Positions 2,723-46,933 of a stretch of 64,000 nt of DNA are shown here, in pieces; within the stretch, counting starts at the first letter, position 1, and every line of letters begins with the position of its first letter. The DNA comes from Morchella semilibera (lineage: Eukaryota; Ascomycota; Pezizomycetes; Pezizales; Morchellaceae). Made by a program: the position numbers and the translations under genes. The notes under the pieces are model-generated. The model made no database searches. It saw only the letters and a list, made by a program, of their open reading frames with translations, and was not told the origin of the DNA. The stretch lies in assembly GCA_009192285.1 (NCBI GenBank), contig WBVU01000008.1:1560370-1624369 (forward strand). The letters run 5' to 3'.

Positions 2723-3567
2723 ACAACCCCCTCTGTGCACAAATAAGACCCAGCTCTGATCTAGTCACACCTCTAGATACCGAAGATACCGCAATCACTC
2801 CGAGTGTTTCCCAACCCAGCACCACAGTACGAGGTTACCCACTCCCAAGTGACATCGAAACCCTCAATTTCGTGGTCAGTGCTCTGCTCGAGCTCCAGGC
2901 CACAAACAGCGTCAACACCCACCTCACCGCCTGCCTTGACCGTCTCCGCGCCGAGCAGGCAGCGTCCACTCCTGCCAGCACTAGCACCAGCACCACGACC
3001 GCCGCCTCCGCAACCGCCGTCCCCACCACCCCCCTCACATGCCAACATCCTAATCACACACTCAGTACTATTGCTCCCATTCCATGCCAGCATCCTAACC
3101 ACATACTCACTACCGTCTCCGGACGAGGCGCCGGCTCGCCAGAGGCCTTCCAGAAGATCATCAAGACCAACTGGCATGGCCGTCTCGGCCGTGCTCACAT
3201 GGTAGATGTTGACGCCCTCTCCACCGCGGCGCTAACCGAGCTCGACTGTTTCCTACGGCGCAAACTGCATGCCATCCTCCCTCGCGGGGGGAAGATCTCT
3301 GACCCTGATGCGGACACAATCTTTATGAGTCTTGCTGCGTTGGGACTTCGGCTGGAGGATCGAGGTGCTTATGCGGATGTGCCTGATACTCCCGAGGATG
3401 CCATGCGTGATACCGCCATGACCACGAGAGGGGCCGACCTTGTGGCATGGTACTACGCGCATGGCACATATGTGGACTACTGGCGGGGGTTTGCGTTGGA
3501 GACATTGGTGGAGCTGGCAAAGTATCGGGGGTTGTTTGATGATGAAGGATGGCTGAGGGTGCAGTAG
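2618..3567 (+). CDS. Orphan tandem-family protein, paralog B (two exons)
   Basis: Exons 2618-2648 and 2765-3567 give about 277 aa. The first exon codes only ten residues. The 116-nt intron has a GTGAGT donor and carries 48 consecutive C. I chose the TAG acceptor at 2763-2764 because the two earlier AGs (2747, 2753) do not restore the frame; this makes the acceptor lie further 3' than in paralog A. The coiled-coil segment is shorter (one repeat plus a remnant: LQATNSVNTHLTACLDRLRAEQ). The C-terminal domain matches paralog A throughout: KTNWHGRLGRAHMVDVDAL, FLRRKL, LGLRLEDR, then a Trp/Tyr-rich block and LVELAKYRGLFDDEGW. A Cys/His pattern (CQHPNHT, then CQHPNHI) in the linker is repeated; paralog A has CSHPDHP and paralog C has only PHPDH, so metal binding is doubtful. 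Function unknown. Confidence 0.75.
2675..2722 (+). repeat. Poly-C homopolymer run (48 C) in the first intron of paralog B
   Basis: Forty-eight uninterrupted C on the coding strand, directly read. The complementary poly-G could form G-quadruplexes and the C strand an i-motif. Shorter runs occur at the equivalent place in paralog A (about 15 C in the intron) and just 5' of the start of paralog C (10 C at 5273-5282). Confidence 0.95.
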
Positions 3568-5298: not shown

Positions 5299-6112
5299 AT
5301 GGCCGCATTCGGGGGTAGCCAGCAGCCCAACAGAGGGGTCTTCGGTGGTGCTAGTTACTGTAAGTCCGACCCTTCCTTCGCGCGCCCCACAGGACACGCT
5401 TTAAAGATGCCTAGCTCCCTTTTGGCAACATTCCAGTGCCCCGCAACGCTCCATCACCCCTGACGCCGCTCTTCCTACTGATGTTTCTGCCCTCCAATCC
5501 ATGATCCAAGCTCTGCAGGCAGAGCTGACCAAGGCCACCACAAGCCTCGCCGACTCCGTCGCCCGTCTACAAACCCTGCAGTCAAGTACCACCACCGCCA
5601 CCACTACCACTGCCCCCCTCCCATTCCCGCATCCGGACCACAAACTAGATGTACCCTCCGGCCGCGGCGCCGGCTCGCCAGAGGTGTTCCAGCAGATTAT
5701 AAAGACCAACTGGCACGGCCGTCTCGGCCGCACGCACATGGTGGACGTTGACGCCCTGCCGCCCACTGCACTCATGGAGCTCGATAACTTCCTACGGCGG
5801 AAGTTACAACAAATCTTCCCTCATGGCGTGGGCCACGGCGAGGCTGATGCAGACGGCATCTTTGCGTGTCTTGCGGTTCTGGGGCTCCGGCTGGAGAATA
5901 GAGCACAGTTCGTGGATTTCAAGGTAGCACCTGATAATACTTTACTTCATGATAGCACGCTCAAGAGGGCAAGGCACCTTTCGGCATTCTATATCGGAAA
6001 TCAGTTGTTCGAAAATGTTGGGTACTGGCGTGGGCTTGTGTTGGAGACATTGGTGGAGCTGGCGAGGTATCGGGGACTATTTACTGAGGAGGGATTCCTG
6101 AAATTGGAGTAA
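5299..6112 (+). CDS. Orphan tandem-family protein, paralog C (two exons)
   Basis: Exons 5299-5359 and 5415-6112 give about 252 aa. The 55-nt intron has a GTAAGT donor; of the three AG candidates only TAG at 5413-5414 restores the downstream frame at phase 1. The N-terminus is Gly/Ser/Gln-rich (MAAFGGSQQPN). A short coiled coil (MIQALQAELTKATTSLADS) replaces the 21-residue repeats of paralog A. The C-terminal domain is well conserved: KTNWHGRLGRTHMVDVDAL, FLRRKLQQIFP, LGLRLENR, then YWRGLVLETLVELARYRGLF. Compared with paralogs A and B, the linker is shorter. This and the two other copies differ most in the linker and N-terminus, least in the C-terminal domain, which suggests purifying selection on the latter. 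Function unknown. Confidence 0.8.
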
Positions 6113-17759: not shown

Positions 17760-18365
17760 GGATCCAGATAAACCCACATTATGTAGTGCGTCATGTACCC
17801 TACTGATAGTTCATGGCAACCATATACCAACACTTTACGTTTTCGATGTACCATATGTATAGTCCTGTACCTTATCAATAGTTTATACCGATCGTATACT
17901 GCTATATTTTATACATTTTTATGTACCCTAACTATAGTTCTGTACCTTGCCGATGGTTTATAACAATTGTTCACTTTATATGGTACTCCCGATGTACTTT
18001 ATCTATAGTCCTGTACCTTATCGATAGTCCATGCCAACCGTTAACTATACTTATATTCAGTGCAATGTACCTAGTCTATAGTCTTGTACCCTACCAATAA
18101 ATAATAACAACCATTTCATATACTTTATACTTCTTCTGATGTACCATATCTATAGTCCTGTACCTTACCGATAGTTTATAACAACTGTATAGTATATTTC
18201 ATACTTTTTCGATGTACCCTAACTATAGTCGTGTGCCCTACCGATAGTCTTTTGCGACCGTTATTTATATTCCATATTCTCTCAATATAATTCGGATAGT
18301 ATATTGCTTCCGTTGCCATGTACCCTATTTATAGTCCTGTACCCTGTCAATAGTTGTACACCGAG
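17760..18365. repeat. Harbinger-internal satellite, block 1 (about 73-bp period)
   Basis: About seven degenerate units, each with a TGTACCCTA...TATAGTCCTGTACC...GATAGT core followed by an AT-rich spacer; cores fall near 17858, 17932, 18006, 18078, 18149, 18224 and 18330. Similar cores occur in block 2 (19398-19520) and once at 20215-20255, after the second solo LTR. Confidence 0.85.
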
Positions 18366-19168: not shown

Positions 19169-19397
19169 CTTAGTCAAATATATGTTACTGTAAGACTGAA
19201 ATTTTACATAGTTAAAAGTCTATATATAATTTCCGGATTTTTTATTATTTAAACTCTATACTCCACTCCTGCTATATTAAATATATTACTACCAGATTCT
19301 ATTATTTTTTCTGGTCAAAATAATACATATATTGTAATTCACTCAAATATGATTGTGTTGCGCAGTGCAAGCAGCATTCTCAACATACCTCAACCTG

Positions 19398-19560
19398 ATG
19401 TACCCTACCTATAGTCCTGTATCCTACCGGTGGTCTATAGCAACCGCTCACCACACCTAACACCACACCCCACATACCCGATGTACCCTACCTATAGTCC
19501 TGTACCCTACCGGTAGTCCATAGCAACCCCTCACCACACCTAACACCACACCTCAAAACC
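19398..19560. repeat. Harbinger-internal satellite, block 2 (about 80-bp period)
   Basis: Two units of the GTACCCTACCTATAGTCCTG core with CACCACACCTAACACCACAC spacers; a third core lies after the solo LTR at 20211-20262. Confidence 0.85.
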
Positions 19561-20205: not shown

Positions 20206-20382
20206 TATACCCGATGTACCCTATTGATAGTCCTGTACCCTACCGATAGTCCATGGCAACGCCCACCCCAAACACATAAGATTTTTCCCAACTTCTGCTG
20301 ATTTGAATTATCTCAACCACTTATTAATAATCTGCACTTTAGAATAATCCACCAAATAATCCAAACCAGCCCGAACAGGCCC

Positions 20383-34570: not shown

Positions 34571-36290
34571 GGTATAGCATGGCGGGTCATGTGCAAGCAC
34601 AGGCGTGCCTGGACAATAAGGCATTTCCTTTGTATTTCTTTCCTATTTTCTAGCTATTTCCTTTGTTCGCTTTCATGTCGCTGGCTATAAGAGTAGGCCT
34701 TTTGGCAGTAGAGTATTAGAAACTAATCAAGCATCTGTTTTTATACACTTTCAACAGTGAGGTACTTGAATGCGGGATGAAATGGTAGTATGGCTACCCT
34801 TCCCACCCACAACTCATGGGAGTATTTGTAGATGGTCAACCTCTAACTAGATTAGGCTTGCGCGGGGGCCACGGAAACCACAATACACAACATGTAGTCT
34901 AGGTCCAGATTCAGGGTTACGCCAACTGTGGAGACCTTCGACACTGGCTTTCCTTCCGGGTGCGGGCGTAGTATAGGTACGTGGCCAGTAAGCAAGAAGG
35001 ATATATCGGGAGGAAGGACAGGTAGCCTCTTCTCTTCTTCTTCTCTCCTCTCTGGGGCTGGACGCTCAACAAAACCTTGAGCATCGGCCGCCGGCGCAGG
35101 ATTGACATAAAAAGTAGCGGGGTATACAACTTATCATTAGCATTGTGTCAATCACCACAACATATGTTCGGCAAAAAGATGTTTTGAATCGCGGCAACAG
35201 AGAAAGGGGTCGGTAGTAGAAGTGATTGAGGAATGTATATATGTTTATTACTCTCAGCACGGTTTGGCCGTTTGGATTTGGATGTCAATGATGCTTGCGT
35301 CCCAGTCCTTCCAGATATTGCCCCTTGCTGCGTACTTGACTCCCTTCTTTTCACTTACTATTACTCTACTCCTATCCCCTTTTTTTTCCGGTCTGTATAT
35401 GATGCTAAAGTTGCTGCTACCTACCGCCACCTCCCCACTTCCCACTCCTACTACCGATTCCTTTATCTTTTCCACCCTGAGCTTGCCTAGGCATTATTGG
35501 TGTTTGTTGCGGTCTCTGATTTTCTGGATGTGCCAATAGTTCTGGCGGGTGTTTCCTCTCCATGGCAATTGTTTGTCTGAAGTAGTTTTTTCTCTCATTG
35601 CAGAATCTCGGGGCAGCGCAGCCCCGTAACCAAATCCGGCTCTCTATTGGTCCTGACGGACCATTAGTAACGCTGGCGAGCTTTATCAAGTACATGGGTA
35701 GATTCTACTATATCTGAGTCTAAACGTTTAGTTTTAACTCAATCCGAGAACAATTGGTGGAGTTGTCCCATCTTTTGAAATGGTTCGAGGTCGTTCCCTT
35801 CCTTCATGGTATATCACTCGCCGCGTACTATGCGGAACGACAGACCGTTTAGAAGCAAACTGAGCCGGCTCTGTATTCTAGTTGTCTGGTTTGCTGGTGG
35901 TGCGATCAGGGCTATCGGGTTTTTGGAGAATGGAGCTGGCTCTGTTTGCGTGGAGTCTCTAATTAGTTTCCCTGGCCACTGGGACTCCAACTGGCCGGGC
36001 AGCCAATGATGATCGGTGGAGAAGATGTACCACTACAGAAGTCACTTGCAACGTTGATCTGCGTTAACTATCCGAGTGGGGTGTGTCTACCCAGCGCTGA
36101 AACAAAGAGCATTGCCACGCCGGGCTAGTGGCGGTTGCCCGGCTGTGGCTTTCTCGATGGGGCTGTTGTCTTGTGGCTGGCTGCCAACCAGCTTGGCCAC
36201 CCCCGCTTTAACGTCGTGAAGCTAAAAACACCTCAGCTACTGTACTGCTTTCAATAACGTATTATATTCATTACAGCCGTCATCACCATC

Positions 36291-37459
36291 ATGTCGTTCG
36301 GTATCGGTATCGGTGACGTTCTTTTAATCACCAAAATGGGGTTCTCATTATGGGTAAACGTTAGCGGGGCCAAAGAAGAGCGCGAGGAGTTGATGATGAA
36401 CCTAATGGATTGGAAAGAGAAGTTGGAATCCATTGAGCCTATGCTTACTGACCATGCAGGGATGACACCGCGCGATCTTAGAATTGCCAAGAGGAAATTT
36501 TCAGAGGCTTTAGTAACTCTCCAGGTCCTCGAGGAACTAAACCAAAAGCTTGTGAAAGGAAGGGTATTTCGGCGAGCGGCATGGGAGGTACGAGGAAGGG
36601 CAACGTTTCTAGATTACCAGACGAAGCTTGAAAAGAAGCTCGATGCGATAGAAAAGCTTTTCGGTCACACGTCAATGTATGTAAACTGAATCCAGCTTAA
36701 TTATCGGTTACGCTCTAATTAACCACGTTCTCTAGGGTGGTGCTCAAGGACGAAGTTCGAGCAAACAGTCGTTTATTGGAAGGACTAACCGATTTCTCAA
36801 ACCAGAGGACGATTAGATTTACTGATGCATTAGATATCAAACGCCTAATATTATTGGACTTGTGCCAAAAATGGGAGGTACAAAGTCTATTTAGTCCTCA
36901 TCACAGCGCCTCATGACATTACTGATTCCGTGATCAAAGGATTTCCGAACTATACTCTCTATTCTTTTCAGAGAATCTGCTGGAAAGTCCTTTGTTGAGC
37001 AGGGGGAATACGACATCGTCAACGAAGAGAACGGCGCGCTCCTGAGACCAGAAAATTGGAGTTGCACGGTTAAGGCCGGCATGACACTTTCAATGGCAAT
37101 AGTGCTACGGAAAAGGATAGGTAGGGGGGAAAACGATTATAGGTGCCCGGCTTGCAAAACACAATATATCAGACCAGTTGGTACAGCCGCGAGAAACGAT
37201 CTAGAACGCGTGCAGTGGTAATTGACGCCTACGCTAAGCGAGAGATTTGTGACTGAAATATGGGACTGGCAGCGTGGACAAGCATTGTAGACGGTGGTTT
37301 GAAATATCCTCAGAAAGCACGGTTGTGGCCATTGGTTCTCATACCACCGAGCAACAAAAAGGTTTAAATTCAAACACTAGCGAGCCTTCAAAGGATGACG
37401 ACTTGAAGCATATACAACGGTTCCATATCCGTGTAAACGAGATTGACAGCAGGGTGTGA
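36291..37459 (+). CDS. STAND-type N-terminal domain plus ubiquitin-like domain protein (four exons)
   Basis: Exons 36291-36676, 36736-36877, 36940-37217 and 37273-37459 give about 330 aa; the introns are 59, 62 and 55 nt with GTATGT, GTACAA and GTAATT donors, and all phases fit. The N-terminus (MSFGIGIGDVLLITKMGFSL, then a helical stretch to about residue 125) resembles the fungal_N domain that starts many ascomycete STAND/NLR-like proteins. The middle (TIRFTDALDIKRLILLDLCQKWE, FVEQGEYDIVNEENGALLRP, NWSCTVKAGMTLSM) matches the fungal ubiquitin-like domain that often follows it. Next comes a Cys motif pair (CPAC...C...HCRRWFEIS) that could bind zinc. The TGA at 37457-37459 ends the simplest model, but GTGAGT at 37456 is a good donor and an extra exon (37497-37531) may follow, leading into the intron-like minisatellite. 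Probable role: signalling in self/non-self or stress responses, by family only. Confidence 0.8.
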
Positions 37460-37496
37460 GTTCAAGAGACCTTTCTAATTCACTATGTATACGAAG

Positions 37497-37583
37497 AATC
37501 ACTCCAGCTAAGACCCAATCAGGCCCGAAATGTATGTAAGCCCTCGCTTATCGATGATGTACGTGCTTACCTTATATACACAG
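37497..37583 (+). other. Candidate extra exon plus intron joining the ubiquitin-like gene to the minisatellite
   Basis: If GTGAGT (37456) is used as a donor, a 41-nt intron with a TTCTAATTC branch ends at AAG 37496 and the frame continues as VITPAKTQSGPK. It is followed by GTATGT at 37532 and, 52 nt later, ACAG at 37583, where the array starts. The last 30 nt of this second intron (GATGATGT, GTGCTTACC, TATATACACAG) align with the 3' half of the minisatellite unit. Speculative: no transcript evidence. Confidence 0.35.
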
Positions 37584-38870
37584 GTTGTGAATAGACTCCA
37601 CGCCGGCGAGTATTTCGGTGATATGCTGACCGTATACAGAAGGTGAGTAAAGCGACACTGATTATGGAGTTATACACTGACCGTATGCAGCGAGTAAGGA
37701 GACCACAGACCTCCGAGGACTCCGATGATGTGCTGACCGTATGTAGAAAGTAAGTAGACCACAGACCGCCGAGGACTCCGATAGTGTGCTAACCGTATGC
37801 AGGAGGTAAGTAAATCTATACCACCGCCGAGGACTTCGATGATGTGCTGACGGTATGCAGGAGGTAAGTAGACCACAGACCGCCGAGGACTCCGATGATG
37901 TGCTGACCGTATACAGAAAGTAATTAGACCACAGACCGCCGGGGACTACGATGATGTGCTGACCTTATGCAGGGAGTAAGTAGACCACAGACCGCCGAGG
38001 ACTCCGGTGATGCGCTGACCGTATGTAGAAAGTAAGTAGCCCACAGACCGCCGAGAAATCCGATAGTGTGCTAACCGTATGTAGGAGGTAAGTAAATCTA
38101 TACCACCGCCGAGGACTCCGATGGTTTGCTGACCGTACGCAGGGAGTAAGTAGACCACAGACCGCCGGGGACTCCGATGATGTGCTGACTGTATACAGGC
38201 AGTAAGTAGACCACAGACCGCCGAGGACCCCGATGATGTGATGACCGTATGCAGGGAGTAAGTAGACCACAGACCGCCAAGGACCCCGATGATGTACTGA
38301 CCGTATGCAGCGAGTAAGTAGACCACAGACCGACGAGGACTCCGGTGATGTGCTGACCGTATGCAGGGAGTAAGTAGACCACAGACCGCCGAGGACTCCG
38401 ATGATGTGCTGACCGTATGCAGGTGGTAAGTAAATCTCTACCACCGCCGTGGACTCCAATGATGTGTTGACCGTATGCAGGGAGTAAGTAGACCACAGAC
38501 CGCTGAGGACTCCGATGATGTGCTGACCGTATATAGGGCGTAAGTAGACCACAGACCGCCGAGGGCTCAGATGATGTGCTGACCGTATATAGCGCGTAAG
38601 TAGGCCACAGACCGCCGAGGACTCCGATGATGTGCTGACCGTATGCAGGGAGTAAGTAGACCATAGAGCGCCAAAAACCCCGATGATGTGTTGACCATAT
38701 GTAGGCTGTAAGTATATCTATACCACCGCGGAGGACTCCGATGGTGTGCTGACCGTATACAGGGAGTAAGTAGACCACAGACCGCCGAGGACTCCAATGA
38801 TGCGCTGACCGTATGCAGGCAGTAAGTAGACCACAGACCGCGGAAGACTCCGATGATGTGCTGACCGTAC
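37584..38870 (+). repeat. Intron-like minisatellite, left part (23 triplet junctions)
   Basis: Tandem units of 55-58 bp. The common unit reads GTAAGTAGACCACAG, ACCGCCGAGGACTCC, GATGATGTGCTGACC, GTATGCAG (53 nt) followed by three variable bases; a second type has GTAAGTAAATCTATACCACC at its start (55 nt). Each unit therefore has an ideal donor, a branch-like GCTGAC about 12 nt before the end, and a CAG or TAG acceptor. The AG before and the GT after the triplet are unchanged in every copy read, while the triplet varies (GTT, AAG, CGA, AAA, GAG, GGA, GCA, GTG, GGC, CGC, GCT). The array is broken at 38870 by Gypsy-2, between GACCGTAC and GCAG of one unit. Confidence 0.97.
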
Positions 38871-39473
38871 TATCACGGCGTACCACGGGCTTCGCGGAGG
38901 AGGAGGATATCAGGGTATAGGTCTTCGGGTGTAAAGGTTTCCTTTTGGTTCTTGGAGTTTCTATGGGTTTTCGTTACACGGTGTGATGAGTCATGACTGT
39001 ACAGGGATTAGGAGGGGTATATATATGTTGCTACGGATTTTTCCTGTGTTCTTTTCTTTCTCTTTCTTTCCTTACGTGTTCTTCCTGTTATCAACCCTAC
39101 GGTTTAGTTTCGTCTCGTTTGTGTCTTTAGTTCTGAATATATTACGTCATAACCATAGCCTCTGCCAAGACCCCCTTGGGTCTTCCATAGTATCTCGTCT
39201 TTGTCTCGTCTCGCCTCGTCTTCGTCTCGCTTCGTCTCGCTTCGCCTCGCTTCGCCTCGCTTCGTCCTGCCCATAGCCCATGACCGTAGTACGTATCGTC
39301 TACTGGTATCTTCGTCTCCACGTCTTTGTCAGAGAGGCCATCTGGACCCTCTGCCCCACAACTCTGCTGCTCGGTTAGGTTCTACCGTTGCCCCCCCTCG
39401 TCGTCGTCCTTGCTCCTGCCTCGGTTGTGTACCTCGGCCTTCTTGATTGTTGTCTCCGTGTTGCTCCGTAACA
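38871..39473 (+). repeat. 5' LTR of Gypsy-2
   Basis: 603 bp. A GGGGTATATATATG stretch near 39015 is a plausible TATA region about 55 nt before the predicted RNA start at 39074 (ACGTGTTCTT, the self-priming sequence). A run of TCGTCTCGCCTCG-like repeats fills 39178-39265. Confidence 0.95.
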
Positions 39474-39475
39474 CT

Positions 39476-39485
39476 AAGAACACGT
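39476..39485 (+). promoter_or_regulatory. Gypsy-2 primer-binding site, self-priming type
   Basis: AAGAACACGT begins 2 nt (CT) after the LTR and is a perfect complement of ACGTGTTCTT at 39074-39083 in the LTR. Gypsy-1 has the same layout with a different sequence pair, so the two sides co-vary. Confidence 0.75.
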
Positions 39486-39535
39486 CCCCTCCGCCGACCT
39501 ACACAACGCCCTCGTCTCGCCTCGCCTCGGTTATA

Positions 39536-40525
39536 ATGACCGATCTTGGTTGGGATGTCCCTATGGGGGACTGCCCCAACCCTGTCTTTTTCTCTCCCGG
39601 TCCCCTCGAGTGCTTCTTCCCAGAAAGGAAGGGTTACTGCCACCTCGCCCTCGTCCCCCGCTCCCACTGGTTCGACCTTGGCAACCGCCTCGGCTCGGAC
39701 CCCCACGTCCACCGTCTCCGGCAATATGCTATTTCCCACGGTCTCAAGCGCGCCGACGCCCACTGGGCTAAGGCCACCTTTACTCAACCTGCCCCGGGCA
39801 AGCTCCATATTGGAGCCCCCACCATCGATGACTCCTGCCCCGCCCACGACTCCGAAGCTATTATTCGTGGCCTTAGGGACTCCGCCCTCGCCCAACATAC
39901 CATCGGCCGTCCCCTGGAAATCCCCGTTGCCTCTGCCCCCAATACCCTGACCGAGAGACTCACGAGCTTCTTGGAAACCTTTGGTCCCGTTGAGGAAGAC
40001 TTCGGGTACGAGCTGACCGAGGCTCATACCCTTATCGCCGAAGCTCTTGCCGCTCTGAACGCCCACGCTGATGCCCCCGCCCTCGCCCCCAAAGAACCAG
40101 CCGTATGTACGGCCCACAATGAGGCTATCGAGAACCTCGAAGTGGAACTTGAAGCAGCCGAAGGGAAGGTTGCTGACCTCTGGTCCCGTATGTGCGAGGC
40201 CCAGGAAGAATCAGTGGAGGCTGCCCAGGATCTCCAGGAAGAAGTGGCCTCCCTCATAGCTGAGAAGGAGGAGTTCCGCTACCGCTTGGCCCTGCACCAG
40301 AAAGCCCTCGCTGACGCGGATGCCACCATTGTTGACCTCCGCCGCCGCCTAACTCTTGCCGCCCCCAATGCTACTAGGAAGTTGTCTCGCCCCGCCGCCC
40401 CAACCTCAAAGCCCCGCTACCTCGCCCCTCGCTCCCAGGATTCCCGCACCCCCGACAACTGGCGTAAAGCACCAGTTGAACCAGCAATTCAGAAGCCGGC
40501 GTTAAAAGGTCAGCCCCTTTGGTAG
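39536..40525 (+). CDS. Gypsy-2 gag-position protein, no zinc knuckle
   Basis: ATG 39536 to TAG 40523-40525, 329 aa. Start MTDLGWDVPMGDCPNP is the first ATG in the frame after the LTR; upstream in-frame sequence is LTR. The C-terminal half has a strong predicted coiled coil (AIENLEVELEAAEGKVADLW, LQEEVASLIAEKEEF) and then a basic Pro/Ser-rich tail. I see neither the capsid segment nor the CCHC zinc knuckle found in Gypsy-1 gag (CYYCGGVGHLVRDC), although the two pol proteins are clearly related. It occupies the gag slot between primer-binding site and pol and overlaps pol by 43 nt, so it may be a divergent or replaced Gag. Expected role: RNA packaging and particle assembly; unproven. Confidence 0.75.
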   Translation: MTDLGWDVPMGDCPNPVFFSPGPLECFFPERKGYCHLALVPRSHWFDLGNRLGSDPHVHRLRQYAISHGLKRADAHWAKATFTQPAPGKLHIGAPTIDDSCPAHDSEAIIRGLRDSALAQHTIGRPLEIPVASAPNTLTERLTSFLETFGPVEEDFGYELTEAHTLIAEALAALNAHADAPALAPKEPAVCTAHNEAIENLEVELEAAEGKVADLWSRMCEAQEESVEAAQDLQEEVASLIAEKEEFRYRLALHQKALADADATIVDLRRRLTLAAPNATRKLSRPAAPTSKPRYLAPRSQDSRTPDNWRKAPVEPAIQKPALKGQPLW

Positions 40526-43500
40526 AAATTGGCACACCAAAGGGGCTAGTCCCGCCACCCACCTTTGTCCTCTCCGCCGCCGCCGTTTCCGAAGACAGGA
40601 TGTCCGAGGAGTCTCTTGTTGTTTCCTGCTCGGTTGCTCAAGACGCCGTCGCCCCCATTGCTACCCACGCCCTGATAGATACAGGCGCTTCGGGCTATGC
40701 TTTTGTTGACCAAGGGTTTGTCTTGCAACATGGTCTTGTTCTGGTTCCCCTGAAGACATCACGCTTGCTCGAGGTAATCGACGGCAGGCTGGTGGAATCA
40801 GGGAAAATTACGCATATGGTCAAGCTCTCCCTGGATATTAATGGACACCAGGAACTGGCTCCGTTTTTCGTTACGAAGTTAGGCCACTACCCCCTAGTAA
40901 TGGGTATCCCTTGGATGAGGCACCACGATCTGGCTATCAGACCAAAGACGAATAAGATCATCTTTGATTCTGACTTCTGCGTTCAGAACTGCTCTCGCTC
41001 CTATGCTCCAGTTACGGCAAAAGGAATCTCGGTTTCGTTCCCCGATGCCCCGGCCATTCAGATCGCGGCCATCGGAGCGGTCCCCTTTCTAGGACTTGCT
41101 CGACGCCAGCAGAATAAACTCTTCTGTGCGTCGATCCGGGCTATTGATGAGGCTCTTGCTGGAAAACAAGTCCTCAACCCCCTGGCTCATGTACCTATGG
41201 AACTTCGGGAATTTATATCCTTGTTTAAAGAATCCGATGCCGCCGCTCTGCCTCCACACCGTCCTCATGACTTGAAAATAGTCCTACAGGATGGCAAGAT
41301 ACCCCCGTTCGGTCCCCTCTATGGCATGTCTCGGTTGGAACTCCAGGCTTTGAGGGATTATATTACGGAGAATCTCTCGAAGGGCTTTATTCGCTATTCT
41401 GAATCTCCTGCTGGCGCCCCAGTTCTGTTTGTTAAGAAATCCGATGGCTCCCTTCGGTTGTGCGTTGATTATCGAAAGCTTAACGAGATTACGGTTAAAA
41501 ATCGACATCCGCTGCCCCTAATTCCCGAGACCCTGTCGCGCCTGTCCAAAGCAAAATATTATACCAAGTTGGACCTTCGTTGGGGATATCATCAGATTAG
41601 GATACAAGAAGGCGATGAGTGGAAAACTGCGTTTCGGACCCGTTATGGTCATTTCGAGTATAACGTTATGCCTTTTGGATTGACTAATGCCCCCGCCGCG
41701 TTCCAACACTGGATTAATGATCTCCTGCGCCCCTTCTTGTATGATTTCGCTACGGCCTATCTTGATGATGTATTGATTTACTCGGAGACATTGGAAGAGC
41801 ATAAGCAACACGTTCGGGAAGTTCTGAAGGTGTTCCAAATTCATGGTGTTCACCTCAAGCCTGAGAAATGCGAGTTCTATGTCCAACAGACCAAGTACCT
41901 CGGATTGATTATCACCCCCGAAGGCATTCAGATGGACCCGAATAAGGTATCAACGATTAAGGATTGGGAAACTCCCACCAAACTCCGGGAAGTCCAGGAA
42001 TTCCTAGGCTTTGCAAATTTCTACCGGCGATTTATCTATGCGTACTCTCGAGTTGTTGCCCCGCTTACTGCTTTGACCAAGAAAAACGTAAAGTTTGAAT
42101 GGTCTCCAAGGGCAGAAACAGCGTTCCAGAAGCTCAAGGATGCATTTACCTCGGCCCCGATTCTGGCCCACTTTGACTTTGAAAAAGAAGTTATTGTGGA
42201 AACTGACGCCTCCGACTACGTCTCCGCGGGCATTATGTCCCAGTACGGCGACGATGGAATCTTGCACCCAGTGGCATTCTTTTCTAAGAAACATTCTTCA
42301 GCCGAATGCAACTATGAGATCTATGACAAGGAACTGTTGGCAGTGATTAGGAGCTTCGAAGAATGGCGTCCACATTTGGAGGGATCTCGGTACCCTGTTA
42401 AGGTATTAAGTGACCATAGGAATCTGGAATACTTTATGTCGACTAAGTTGTTGAACCGCCGCCAAACACGATGGGCTGAATTTCTGTCGCGATTTAATTT
42501 CGTTATTCAGTTTAGACCAGGGAAACAAGGGGGAAAGCCGGATGCACTTACCAGGAGGTTAAGAGATTTACCAAAGGAAGGGGACGAACGGTTGATGCAC
42601 CAGTCGCAAGTGATATTGAAGCAGGAGAATCTGGAAGCAGGAATTAAGCTAAGTTTGTTGGCGGGTTCTTTGACAAATGAACCCGCTGAAGGAATGCCCA
42701 CCGTGAAGGAGTTGTTGATTCAAGCTTACCAAGAAGATAGTTTCCCAAATCAAGTTCTGACGATGCTTCGTAATGGCACAAAACATTCCAAGAAGATTTC
42801 TCTTGCCGAATGCACCGAAACCGAGGACGGATTCCTTTTGTATCGCCAGGCGATTTATGTTCCCGAATTTAAGGATCTCCAACTTCGCCTCTTACAGGAT
42901 CATCATGATAAGCCCTCCGCTGGACACCCAGGTCGTGCCAAGACCCTCGAACTCCTCAGCCGGAATTATTACTGGCCAAATATGAGGAAGTATGTCGATC
43001 GATATGTCCTGAATTGCAATGTGTGCTCCCGTAGCAAGGCTCCCCGCAATGCCCTTCAAGGTGTTCTTCGACCTCTTGCTGTACCCAAAGGCCCATGGAC
43101 CGATGTATCAATGGATTTTGTTACAGGACTCCCGGAAAGCAATGGTTTTAATGCGATCCTGGTGGTGGTCGACCGTCTAACGAAGATGCGTCACTTTATA
43201 CCCTGCACCGAGGAAGCAAATGCCAGGGATGTTGCTACCATGTACCTCGACTCGGTTTGGAAACTTCATGGACTCCCAGAAACTATTGTCTCGGACCGTG
43301 GCACACAGTTTACGGCCGAATTTTGGAAAGTTTTATGCTCCCGCCTTGAAATCGCCCCCCGCTATAGTACTGCATTTCATCCACAGACAGACGGGCAGAC
43401 CGAGAGGATTAATGCCATTATGGAACAATATCTCCGAGCCTATGTTTCGTATCAACAGGACGATTGGACCCAGTACCTTTCAATGGCGGAGTTTGCAACA

Positions 43501-44172
43501 AATAATCATGTCTCCGAGACCACCAAAATGTCCCCGTTTCAGGCCAATTATGGGAGGAGTCCCCGTATGTCCTTTGCCCCGCTACAGCATGGAAAGACAA
43601 CCAATGAGGATCAGGCGAATGGTATGGCCAGGACTATGGCACAGGTTTACGAGTTTCTTCGTGATGAAATGGCCCGGGCTCAAAAAATTTATGAGGAGGC
43701 AGCAAATCGGAATAGAATTCCTGCCCCTAGGTATGCTATCGGAGATGAAGTTTTTCTTTCGACTCGGAATATTGAGACCAAGCGACCCTCGAAGAAACTC
43801 GATTGGAAACGTATTGGCCCCTATGTGATTAAGCGGATGGTTAGCCCCTATGCTTATGAACTCGATCTCCCGGCGTCTATGAAAATCCACCCGGTGTTTC
43901 ATGTGTCCCTTTTGTCTCTTGCCCCCAGCAATCCAGTTCCCGGTCAGCGACAGTCCCCACCTCCAGCCATAGAAATCGAAGGTGAGCAGGAATGGGAAGT
44001 GGAACGAATTTTAGACTCCCGATGGCGTTATGGCAAATTGGAGTATTTGGTTCGGTATTTGGGTTATGACGAACCATCCTGGCAACCCCCCGAGGATTTG
44101 GAGCATGCCCCCGACTTGGTCAAGAATTTTCACGATAGTTACCCACGCAAACCTAGGCCTACCAGGAGTTAG
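40480..44172 (+). CDS. Gypsy-2 pol polyprotein with chromodomain, intact
   Basis: The frame is open from 40480 (after a TGA) to TAG 44170-44172 and lies -1 relative to gag, with 43 nt overlap, so expression as a Gag-Pol fusion by frameshifting is likely. Counting from 40519: aspartic protease HALIDTGASGYAF (about 50-62), RT with [20 protein letters not shown] and catalytic YLDD (about 413), RNase H with VETDASDYVS (about 560), integrase with the HHCC zinc region (HPGRAK...CNVCSRSK), catalytic MDFV, SDRGTQF (about 925) and a Glu in TERINAIMEQYL, then a C-terminal chromodomain (EWEVERILDSRWR, LEYLVRYLGYDEPSWQP) ending KPRPTRS. Every expected motif is present and there are no stops. The chromodomain is known to direct chromoviruses to marked chromatin, which fits an insertion in a repeat array. 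Confidence 0.95.
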   Translation, partial: TSNSEAGVKRSAPLVEIGTPKGLVPPPTFVLSAAAVSEDRMSEESLVVSCSVAQDAVAPIATHALIDTGASGYAFVDQGFVLQHGLVLVPLKTSRLLEVIDGRLVESGKITHMVKLSLDINGHQELAPFFVTKLGHYPLVMGIPWMRHHDLAIRPKTNKIIFDSDFCVQNCSRSYAPVTAKGISVSFPDAPAIQIAAIGAVPFLGLARRQQNKLFCASIRAIDEALAGKQVLNPLAHVPMELREFISLFKESDAAALPPHRPHDLKIVLQDGKIPPFGPLYGMSRLELQALRDYITENLSKGFIRYSESPAGAPVLFVKKSDGSLRLCVDYRKLNEITVKNRHPLPLIPETLSRLSKAKYYTKLDLRWGYHQIRIQEGDEWKTAFRTRYGHFEYNVMPFGLTNAPAAFQHWINDLLRPFLYDFATAYLDDVLIYSETLEEHKQHVREVLKVFQIHGVHLKPEKCEFYVQQTKYLGLIITPEGIQMDPNKVSTIKDWETPTKLREVQEFLGFANFYRRFIYAYSRVVAPLTALTKKNVKFEWSPRAETAFQKLKDAFTSAPILAHFDFEKEVIVETDASDYVSAGIMSQYGDDGILHPVAFFSKKHSSAECNYEIYDKELLAVIRSFEEWRPHLEGSRYPVKVLSDHRNLEYFMSTKLLNRRQTRWAEFLSRFNFVIQFRPGKQGGKPDALTRRLRDLPKEGDERLMHQSQVILKQENLEAGIKLSLLAGSLTNEPAEGMPTVKELLIQAYQEDSFPNQVLTMLRNGTKHSKKISLAECTETEDGFLLYRQAIYVPEFKDLQLRLLQDHHDKPSAGHPGRAKTLELLSRNYYWPNMRKYVDRYVLNCNVCSRSKAPRNALQGVLRPLAVPKGPWTDVSMDFVTGLPESNGFNAILVVVDRLTKMRHFIPCTEEANARDVATMYLDSVWKLHGLPETIVSDRGTQFTAEFWKVLCSRLEIAPRYSTAFHPQTDGQTERINAIMEQYLRAYVSYQQDDWTQYLSMAEFATNNHVSETTKMSPFQANYGRSPRMSFAPLQHGKTTNEDQANGMARTMAQVYEFLRDEMARAQKIYEEAANRNRIPAPRYAIGDEVFLSTRNIETKRPSKKLDWKRIGPYVIKRMVSPYAYELDLPASMKIHPVFHVSLLSLAPSNPVPGQRQSPPPAIEIEGEQEWEVERILDSRWRYGKLEYLVRYLGYDEPSWQPPEDLEHAPDLVKNFHDSYPRKPRPTRS

Positions 44173-44176
44173 GCCT

Positions 44177-44192
44177 GAAGGAGGGCCTAATC
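44177..44192 (+). promoter_or_regulatory. Gypsy-2 polypurine tract
   Basis: GAAGGAGGG followed by CCTAATC lies directly before the 3' LTR, the position of the plus-strand primer in LTR retrotransposons. Confidence 0.55.
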
Positions 44193-44795
44193 TATCACGG
44201 CGTACCACGGGCTTCGCGGAGGAGGAGGATATCAGGGTATAGGTCTTCGGGTGTAAAGGTTTCCTTTTGGTTCTTGGAGTTTCTATGGGTTTTCGTTACA
44301 CGGTGTGATGAGTCATGACTGTACAGGGATTAGGAGGGGTATATATATGTTGCTACGGATTTTTCCTGTGTTCTTTTCTTTCTCTTTCTTTCCTTACGTG
44401 TTCTTCCTGTTATCAACCCTACGGTTTAGTTTCGTCTCGTTTGTGTCTTTAGTTCTGAATATATTACGTCATAACCATAGCCTCTGCCAAGACCCCCTTG
44501 GGTCTTCCATAGTATCTCGTCTTTGTCTCGTCTCGCCTCGTCTTCGTCTCGCTTCGTCTCGCTTCGCCTCGCTTCGCCTCGCTTCGTCCTGCCCATAGCC
44601 CATGACCGTAGTACGTATCGTCTACTGGTATCTTCGTCTCCACGTCTTTGTCAGAGAGGCCATCTGGACCCTCTGCCCCACAACTCTGCTGCTCGGTTAG
44701 GTTCTACCGTTGCCCCCCCTCGTCGTCGTCCTTGCTCCTGCCTCGGTTGTGTACCTCGGCCTTCTTGATTGTTGTCTCCGTGTTGCTCCGTAACA
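44193..44795 (+). repeat. 3' LTR of Gypsy-2
   Basis: 603 bp; reads the same as the 5' LTR at every position I compared. A 97-codon frame inside (44305-44598) is duplicated exactly in the other LTR and is not a gene. Confidence 0.95.
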
Positions 44796-45612
44796 CGTAC
44801 GCAGGGAGTAAGTAGAGCACAAACCGCCGAGGAATCCAATGATGTGCTGACCGTATGCAGTTGGTAAGTAGACCACAGACCGCCGAGGGCTCCGATGATG
44901 TGCTGACGGTATATAGCGCGTAAGTAGGCCACAGACCGCCGAGGAGTCCGATGGTGTGCTGACAGTACGCAGGGAGTAAGCAGACCACAGACCGCCAGGA
45001 CTCCAATGATGTGCTGACCATATGCAGGTGGTAAGTAAATCTATACCTTCGCCGAGGACCCCGATGATGCGCTGACTGTATGCAGGGAGTGAGTAGACCA
45101 CAGACCGCCGAGGACTCCGATGGTGTGCTGACCGTATGCAGAAGGTAAGAAAATCCATACCACCGCCGAGGACTCAGATGATGTGCTGACCGTATCCAGG
45201 GAGTAAGTAGACCACAGACCACCGGGGACCCCGATGATGCGCTGACCGTATATAGACTGTAAGTAGATCAGGGACCGCCGAGGACTCCGATGGTGTGCTG
45301 ACCGTATGAAGGAGGTAAGAAAATCTATACCACCGCTGAGGACTCTGATGATGTGCTGACCGCATCCAGGGAGTAAGTAGACCACAGACCACCGAGGACC
45401 CCGATGATGCGCTGACCGTATATAGACTGTAAGTAGACCAGGGACCGCCGAGGACTCCGATGGTGTGCTGACCGTATGCAGGGAGTGAGTAGACCACAGG
45501 CCGCCAAGGACTCCGATGATGTGCTGACGGTATATAGCGCGTAAGTGGACCGCAGGCCGCCGAGGACTGCGATGATGTGCTGACCGTATGCAGTGTGTGA
45601 GTAGACCCCATA
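44796..45612 (+). repeat. Intron-like minisatellite, right part (15 triplet junctions)
   Basis: Continues the array after the CGTAC duplication. Triplets here are GGA, TTG, CGC, GTG, AAG, ACT, GAG and TGT, again always between AG and GT. Donors drift slightly towards the end (GTGAGT three times, GTAAGA twice, GTAAGC once). The last unit runs into unique sequence after GTGAGTAGACCCC. Confidence 0.97.
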
Positions 45613-46933
45613 CCGCGCGTGAGAGTGACTCTCTGACGGATACACTATGGAGCCCACGAATTGAAGAACTTGAGGACTAGTCACCACAATGTGGCTAAAG
45701 CTGGTGGATGAAACCGGATAGTAAGAATCATCTCTCCTGAATTGTGCCCGCATCCACCTCGCCACAGGCTCCTTAACCTTATCTATTCTCTAGGCCGGAT
45801 TGGATATCGCCTGCGCTGTTGGTTTTGGTGCGCGGGGCTTGTGGTGTTGGGATCGGCAGTGCTCTGTGCTCTGTGCTTTTCTTTTTCGTCTTATTTCCTA
45901 TTGTTCTTGTTTATGACTTTTACTCTGGAGGTTGGAGGGGAAGGACTGGTAGAACGAGGTGGTGTTAAGTGGGTGGCATGGTGGTTCAAACGGATATGTT
46001 TTATGGTGGGACGATGGAGCTATGGGATGATAAGACGACTGCGATGGGACGGTGATAGAAACGGATATGTTGTATTTCGGTCAAACTTTCTCAAGCCCTA
46101 CATTTCTTTTGTGGCTATTCAAACGCCTATTTGTGACATTGTGTGAGGAAGTAGCTCCTTGAATCACCCAGCCTATCGAGATTAGCGGGACTTCCTATCA
46201 CTGCTCCCGATTACACAGTACCGAGTGATAGTTTGTGATTCATTCAATCAGAAACCAAAATTGACTCTTTCTCACATAGCTAAATTAACCTTAATGTCGA
46301 AATGAAGTATGTTATTATCAATAAGTCGGGGGGGTCTTTAGCCTTGTGGTGGTTTGTGAATTAACAGCCCCGTAGGGAATCACTCCCCGCTGTGCTCCAT
46401 CAACTGCTCCGGTGGATATTTGTGCATCAATGGTGACTCAAGTATTGTGTCACCCTTTTTAAATGTCCCGCACCGCCATATCGGAGGTATTAACGTTGGA
46501 GGACAAATAGGCTCGAGTGATTGGCCTGGGATGATATTTGTCACCAGTGTATCCCTTCTCCACCACATCCACAACGACGCCCCCGCTAGTTAAATCTCCT
46601 ACACCTTGTGCCTATCCGAAACCCCATCCCCTCCATCATTACTCAACCACTCGTTTGTGCTCTTACCCCAGCATTCTACCTGGTCCTGGCCGTCGTGCGC
46701 GTCCTCGTCCTCCCCCGCCTCCTAAGTTGGGATACAGCTGTGGTACCTGACCGCGTGGTGGGTGTGGCTTTTAATGATTGAGAGATCCATTACAGGCTAA
46801 CCTTGCCCAAGCAGAGGGCGACCCAATAGAAATGTTTTTCACAACCCCACTACCAGCAGCAACGACATCAGCCTCCATTCATCTTTTATGAGCGACTGGC
46901 ATGGCTCGTGCATACCAGCAAGAGAGCTCCCTC
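45613..46933. other. Region after the minisatellite; possible TM-coding exon at 45793-46146
   Basis: After CTCTCTAG at about 45785-45792 a frame stays open to TGA 46144-46146 and codes one strong membrane segment (CWFWCAGLVVLGSAVLCALC, continuing hydrophobic). It has no ATG at its start and could be a terminal exon of a gene reading through the array, or chance. The rest holds no gene. Confidence 0.25.

Follow-up and report, generated by a model that had tools for sequence, protein, structure and literature searches.

Can a tandem repeat in which every unit looks like a complete intron belong to a protein-coding gene, and if so, what becomes of the three bases left between one intron and the next? 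This question is raised by a stretch of 64,000 nucleotides (nt) from the fungus Morchella semilibera (the window; C22:1560370-1624369 in our numbering, on GenBank contig WBVU01000008.1), which contains an array, here called A, of 38 junctions of the form AG-NNN-GT. The observation is real, and it amounts to more than a free satellite. We favour, with a probability of roughly 0.6, the reading that the array is a coding linker made of symmetric microexons of one codon each, which would have spread by tandem duplication of an intron together with its codon. What the sequence provides in its favour is the gene context, the existence of paralogues, the matching phases of the modelled exons, the conservation of splice signals in A and in its paralogue B, and a phase 2 without stops; the splicing of the units, the translation of their codons and the exchange between them are what we infer from these.

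Array A within its gene, and the related loci

Each unit of array A can be read as one complete short U2-type intron (GTRAGT ... CTRAC ... AG) followed by one 3-nt exon, with all introns predicted to lie in phase 2. The junctions fall at 37584-45596; 37 were found with a regular expression and the 38th (triplet GTT at 37584-37586, donor GTGAAT) by direct reading. GT and AG are present at 38 of 38 junctions, while the branch site is altered in some units. Since the distance from junction to junction is always 51, 55, 56 or 58 nt, apart from 5986 nt over a retrotransposon, no unit of A was missed by a pattern that requires AG and GT. The introns measure 53 nt (26 of 35), 55 nt (seven), 48 nt (one) or 52 nt (one), a set that leaves out the retrotransposon-split intron and the first introns. 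An initial annotation, made from the letters of the window, had already counted 38 junctions and 28 perfect donors out of 37 and had tallied the triplets; these figures are all borne out on recount (GGA 13 times, GAG four, AAA and CGC three each, five kinds twice and five kinds once).

The same annotation described 37532..45612 as one continuous array. The repeat stands, but the single block does not: a 5.9-kb long terminal repeat (LTR) retrotransposon on the plus strand (38871..44796) lies in the intron after the microexon GCA and divides the array in two, with 23 junctions upstream and 15 downstream. Block 1 (37584..38821, plus strand) comprises 23 putative 3-nt microexons, from GTT at 37584-37586 to GCA at 38819-38821, with short introns between them; block 2 (44797..45596, plus strand) comprises the remainder of the split intron and 15 microexons, from GGA at 44805-44807 to TGT at 45594-45596, both blocks being delimited by pattern scan and direct reading. 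The element is young, its two 604-nt LTRs being identical, and the repeat that flanks it is GTAC (CGTAC if the LTR end is set one base earlier). Because the insertion sits within one intron unit, array A was probably uninterrupted until recently.

Array A sits within a protein gene. Three paralogous loci have the same layout with diverged units, namely B on contig C5 (minus strand), C on C21 and C22, and D on C20, and the intron positions and phases of exons 1 to 4 are common to all four. In A, where every feature is on the plus strand, exon 1 (36291..36676, MSFGIGIGDVLLITK...) is an open frame that ends in phase 2, with a related exon in C and D and a broken one in B; no Pfam family matched it. 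Exon 2 (36736..36877) ends in phase 0, its intron positions and phases matching those of B, C and D. Exon 3 (36940..37217), supported by the paralogues, carries a Cys pair and part of a ULD_2 domain (PF22893); the match, in the piece formed by exons 3 and 4, reaches 39 bits where 24.5 is the cut-off (E 9.8e-10) and covers profile positions 43-84 of 85. Exon 4 (37273..37455, ...HIQRFHIRVNEIDSR) is read as ending in phase 2, as modelled in all four paralogues. Together, exons 1-4 translate to MSFGIGIGDVLL.... A 9-nt exon, GCCCGAAAT (37523..37531), precedes the array; B has GCCCAAAAA at the same place, and by hand reading CCCGA recurs inside a longer exon of D. After the last intron (45597..45652, GTGAGT ... 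CTGAC ... AG, by direct reading), the terminal exon (45653..45680) opens in phase 2 and reads C|CCA CGA ATT GAA GAA CTT GAG GAC TAG, that is PRIEELED*; by hand reading, B, C, D and a relic on contig C9 have similar sequence in the corresponding position. Further ULD_2 matches occur in the genome on C1 and at C5:343 kb.

The paralogues have diverged considerably. DNA matches between A and B are 67-75% identical, and the ratio of nonsynonymous to synonymous substitution over exons 1-4 is 0.36 for A-C, 0.26 for A-D and 0.20 for C-D by NG86 (0.06-0.50 by two other methods). Array B has 40 three-nt exons, a modal intron of 54 nt and mainly GTGAGT donors; array D has 30, with a unit of 70 nt, a modal intron of 67 nt and a branch-like CTGAAT. 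Although the unit bodies have diverged, A, B and D all retain the donor, the branch-like site, the acceptor and the 3-nt exon. Over the whole family, the units show the signals of U2-type introns, with GT at the donor, a branch-like CTRAC and AG at the acceptor; B keeps GT and AG up to its last unit, and there are exceptions in each of A, B, C and D; A, B and D together hold 108 apparent 3-nt exons, each divisible by three and all modelled in one phase, as in a microexon gene.

This divergence bears on a further explanation, namely that the introns themselves are the product and the 3-nt exons mere spacers. Tandem introns that are alike do recall the SNORD115/116 host gene, which has dozens of tandem introns of related content (PMC11608373). 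There the introns hold RNAs of the small nucleolar kind, unlike array A, in which no Rfam family was found, and the unit bodies differ strongly between our paralogues; we regard this explanation as very improbable. A small RNA in the introns was rejected as a candidate: Rfam, searched at E up to 1 over window positions 36200-46000, gives two hits below the gathering score, both in the LTRs, so that array A does not resemble an intron-borne array of any described Rfam family.

How far do such units extend beyond this family? A strict intron-branch-AG-NNN-GTRAGT pattern, run over the 56,756,124 bases and 23 contigs of the genome, gives 57 matches against 0 for its reversed control; 55 of the 57 fall in loci A, B and C (including the copy of C on C21), and D escapes because its branch-like site is CTGAAT. 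Other AG-N3-GT arrays, which the initial annotation proposed to look for, were found at the paralogous loci, with D outside the strict pattern; none was found in unrelated genes by these pattern searches. The same searches speak to the possibility that mobile, introner-like introns were inserted repeatedly, one per codon, into an older continuous linker, which would account for alike introns between unlike triplets and for a P-E-L-S motif less interrupted in D than in A (see below). Introners have been reported in Pezizomycotina (PMC9860276). However, the 57 matches to the unit with up to three mismatches are confined to A, B, C and the C9/C10 copy, and the 24 listed matches to the D unit are confined to D itself; the exact 3-nt spacing is unexpected from insertion, and blocks in D carry their own triplets along. 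The genome pattern searches, in which the best candidates were scored, did not find copies at many unrelated genes, and we consider repeated insertion improbable. Mobile spread of the intron was rejected: the genome searches found no copies outside loci A-D and the C9/C10 relic.

The remaining relatives are fragmentary. The relic on C9 has one unit (AG-GTG-GTGAGT) with a stretch like the terminal exon about 200 nt downstream, and tblastn of C9:1-14500 with the protein found exons 1-4 at no convincing E-value; its counterpart on C10 is known as a pattern match alone. A distant relative on C4 shows, in the corresponding region, apparent single 3-nt exons (CGG, ATC) followed by ...PTIERWW (hand reading), and no tandem array of such units was found at a relative at C21:383 kb. 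Locus C, near 775 kb on C22, has an identical counterpart on C21 (5.9 kb of the two contigs were checked and are identical). Matching hits recur at similar coordinates, near 383 kb and 774 kb on C21/C22 and at 9568 on C9/C10; either pair could reflect assembly duplication or true duplication.

Splice signals, triplets and reading phase

The principal alternative to a coding array is a satellite born from an intron, in which intron and 3-nt exon were amplified in tandem, the array is skipped or retained as one non-coding stretch, and the splice signals are merely copied. We compare signals, triplets and bodies column by column in A, B and D; locus C is excluded from the pooled stop, diversity, invariant-column, triplet-base and tail tests of this section. 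That the triplet is the most variable part of the unit, as initially noted, is confirmed in A, where its columns rank 1-3 of 56 in diversity (1, 2 and 4 of 57 in B; 1-3 of 70 in D). Mean per-site diversity in triplet and body is 0.619 and 0.171 in A, 0.589 and 0.115 in B, and 0.732 and 0.049 in D. The per-position check proposed as a possible refutation does not refute the idea in A or B: among modal-length introns, to which this test is limited, splice positions are invariant at 8 of 10 columns against 8 of 43 elsewhere in A (p 4.6e-4; 26 modal introns of 35) and at 9 of 10 against 17 of 44 in B (p 0.004; 29 modal introns), which argues against signals that are merely copied. The B sets for diversity and invariant columns lack one true intron, cut by a false GAT junction, and the 38 introns listed for B include its two fragments.

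Among 25 pairs of D units whose bodies are identical, 1.88 of the 3 triplet sites differ, which also speaks against a satellite. Bodies so alike around unlike codons could come from conversion among introns, with the peptide kept under selection, or from selection for diversity itself. The word 'hypervariable', used for the triplets in the initial annotation, holds as far as their diversity goes, but they may be merely ordinary protein sequence between homogenised introns. The first base of the triplet is less diverse than the second and third in B, in a comparison that included one false B triplet, and the intervals include zero in A and D; since the difference is clear only in B, we do not claim diversifying selection.

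In which phase would the codons be read? At all four loci the modelled exon 4 ends in phase 2, and the terminal exon in the same phase gives PRIEELED* (A), SRIEELED* (B), SRIEVLED* (C) and SRIVELPDHE* (D), partly by hand reading; the peptides of B, C and D require one extra intron before the final codons (hand reading). The terminal-exon DNA is itself alike among the paralogues, so the likeness of the peptides is no strong proof of frame, though two changed codons in D are synonymous in phase 2 (CGA/AGG, GAG/GAA). If the exon models are right, the array must contribute a multiple of three. Across the 108 microexons, phase 2 has 0 stops in 105 codons. Shuffling within columns leads one to expect 4.16 (P 0.0036), and shuffling the order 2.26 (P 0.042); these P values are optimistic because the units are related by duplication. 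Phase 0 has one stop in 108 and phase 1 four in 105. The four triplets of locus C give 0 stops in three phase-2 codons.

D carries a TAG triplet that is a stop in phase 0 only, which makes phase 2 the likelier phase; the initial reading of the triplets as codons just as they stand is the less likely one. The idea of one-codon microexons itself gains support from the phase-matched flanks, the paralogues, the stop-free phase 2, the conserved A and B signal columns and an exon of D that runs over two introns of A. Read in phase 2, the predicted tails would be VPEMLSEKRRKEKREQDEEWEAAELEQDCAEWERELRELDAVPRIEELED in A, RPKKRMPDYDLDTDPDYFRVPFRPPLFPSLFPEFPPPVPFRPPTSRIEELED in B and GHMPELSNDYYRRREEARRREARRLFMELNPNSPLFPESTRRSRIVELPDHE in D. 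In A, the residues P-E-M-L-S would span the 9-nt exon, GTT, AAG and the first base of CGA; in D, P-E-L-S would come from CCCGAGTTAAG in one 18-nt exon (hand reading) and the first base of the first microexon. TTAAG in D matches A sequence across an A intron, and the D exon is continuous over two A introns; this alignment of A microexons with a D exon also speaks against a satellite. The fraction of helix-forming residues in the tails, examined post hoc against a column-shuffle null, is 0.81 in A (shuffle 0.56, P <0.0001) and 0.62 in D (0.45, P 0.018).

Stops also bear on the opposite strand. Block 1 of A has minus-strand open reading frames of up to 262 amino acids, and the minus strand of A has few stops (3-5 in each frame over 406 codons, 1-2 over 280), as a repeat protein encoded there would have, but the 56-nt unit is not a multiple of three. 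A minus-strand protein was rejected, with 27-35 stops per frame in 706 codons of D and 3-18 in 406 of B, many in one frame; we give this possibility hardly any credence.

Points against a coding array

A number of observations weigh against the coding array, and some of them are what a satellite would lead us to expect. Higher-order tandem periods occur in A (282 and 338 in block 1, 170 in block 2, from Tandem Repeats Finder) and in D (353). The bodies of D are nearly identical and its signal columns do no better than its body columns (9 of 10 invariant against 47 of 57, p 0.48; 19 of 26 introns), while in B eight pairs of units with identical bodies have identical triplets too. Locus C is partly degenerate: clean 3-nt junctions occur only in its first four units, after which it is indel-rich with C-runs and some AG-to-GT gaps differ from 3 nt, which reflects either degeneration or assembly errors. 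The phases of exon 4 and the terminal exon match even without the array, so that the frame is kept if the whole array is skipped. Exon ends were picked by hand and the terminal-exon frame depends on short, conserved DNA; exon 4 of A has two candidate donors, GTGAGT giving phase 2 and a GT two bases upstream giving phase 0. The order-shuffle stop test is weak, and unit duplications leave the codons non-independent. The B tail is rich in proline and does not look helical (0.23, null 0.31). The last unit of B is truncated, an insert with stops breaks its exon 1, and one unit of D has no acceptor AG. Finally, retrotransposons interrupt both A and B, so an intron of about 6 kb would have to be spliced out. 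Set beside the invariant signal columns of A and B, the unlike triplets of D, the stop-free phase 2 and a layout kept by diverged paralogues, these points leave a satellite unlikely, though to be taken seriously.

Other details of these loci deserve mention. The LTR element in array B is young too, its 513-nt LTRs having 0 mismatches; it lies at almost the same position in the intron unit as that of A, just upstream of the acceptor, and the LTRs differ between the two. On the minus strand, locus B also has two copies of a short element with CATCAGCAAAC...TTGCTGATG ends (L010 ~5850-5990 and L009 ~3280-3415), one within exon 1, the other at an acceptor AG of the array. A unit of D near L013 4895-4915 (C20) reads ATAATAG-GTGAGT, where the sole AG would give an exon of zero length, possibly a recursive splice site; its sister unit reads AG-TAG-GT. 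Elsewhere in the window, other repeats with a core like TGTACCCTACCGATAGTCC occur at 17844-18250, 19393-19552 and 20215-20252, over about 2.4 kb.

Possible codon shuffling, and known systems

How would a coding array of this kind work? Short introns can be removed by intron definition despite 3-nt exons, and the spliceosome would pair sites across each short intron and excise the units singly, so that each contributes one residue between the ULD_2 region and the terminal exon. Because the exons are all 3 nt and the introns all in one phase, the frame would survive however many units were duplicated, deleted or skipped. Whole codons would then be gained, lost and shuffled as homologous introns undergo unequal exchange or conversion, and tandem duplication of blocks would bring in more, the introns becoming homogenised within each array as the codons remain unlike. 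We propose, tentatively, that this amounts to frame-safe codon shuffling, in which the intron serves as the vehicle of recombination for a cargo of one codon, and the segment is lengthened, shortened or rewritten residue by residue, perhaps also by microexon skipping. Were this possibility to hold, homology would reside in the introns and diversity in the one-codon exons.

If the coding reading is true, nearly every codon of the tail is interrupted by an intron, and some 40 splicing events serve some 40 residues. Such an extreme gene design, whose tail lengthens or shortens by whole codons with the frame retained, would probe how small an exon can be, take intron definition as far as it goes, and serve as a natural case of protein variation driven by intron repeats. 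Ordinary gene finders are expected to overlook such genes.

In the literature on small exons, intron arrays, introners and Morchella splicing, among the matches listed, with few subscription journals covered and the sources available in part, we found no case in which one-codon exons are arrayed in tandem between homogenised introns. The nearest systems each share some of its properties. Fungal NOD-like receptor (NLR) genes have hypervariable repeats, with variable positions inside homogenised repeats; here, by contrast, it is an intron that repeats and a single codon that varies. Schistosome micro-exon genes contain many small exons. So do the aphid bicycle genes, in which nearly all internal exons are in one phase, as here, and one aphid gene has >100 microexons (PMC9168663). 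Our array differs from both in that its exons are of one codon each and its introns near-identical tandem copies, and the likeness is one of layout. Very small exons are reported or inferred to be used by spliceosomes, fungal ones included, in work on Drosophila homothorax (a 3-bp exon; PMC7392893), lipS of Dactylellina (two 3-nt exons; PMC5639578) and Trichoderma Xlr2 (a microexon; PMC11121469); those genes have one or two small exons each, unlike the 30-40 in tandem here. Introner-like elements and the sister stwintrons of fungi are described as alike introns at many positions (PMC9860276, PMC4457414, PMC8469720), and ours too are alike introns multiplied in a fungal genome, but found in one gene family only, and in tandem.

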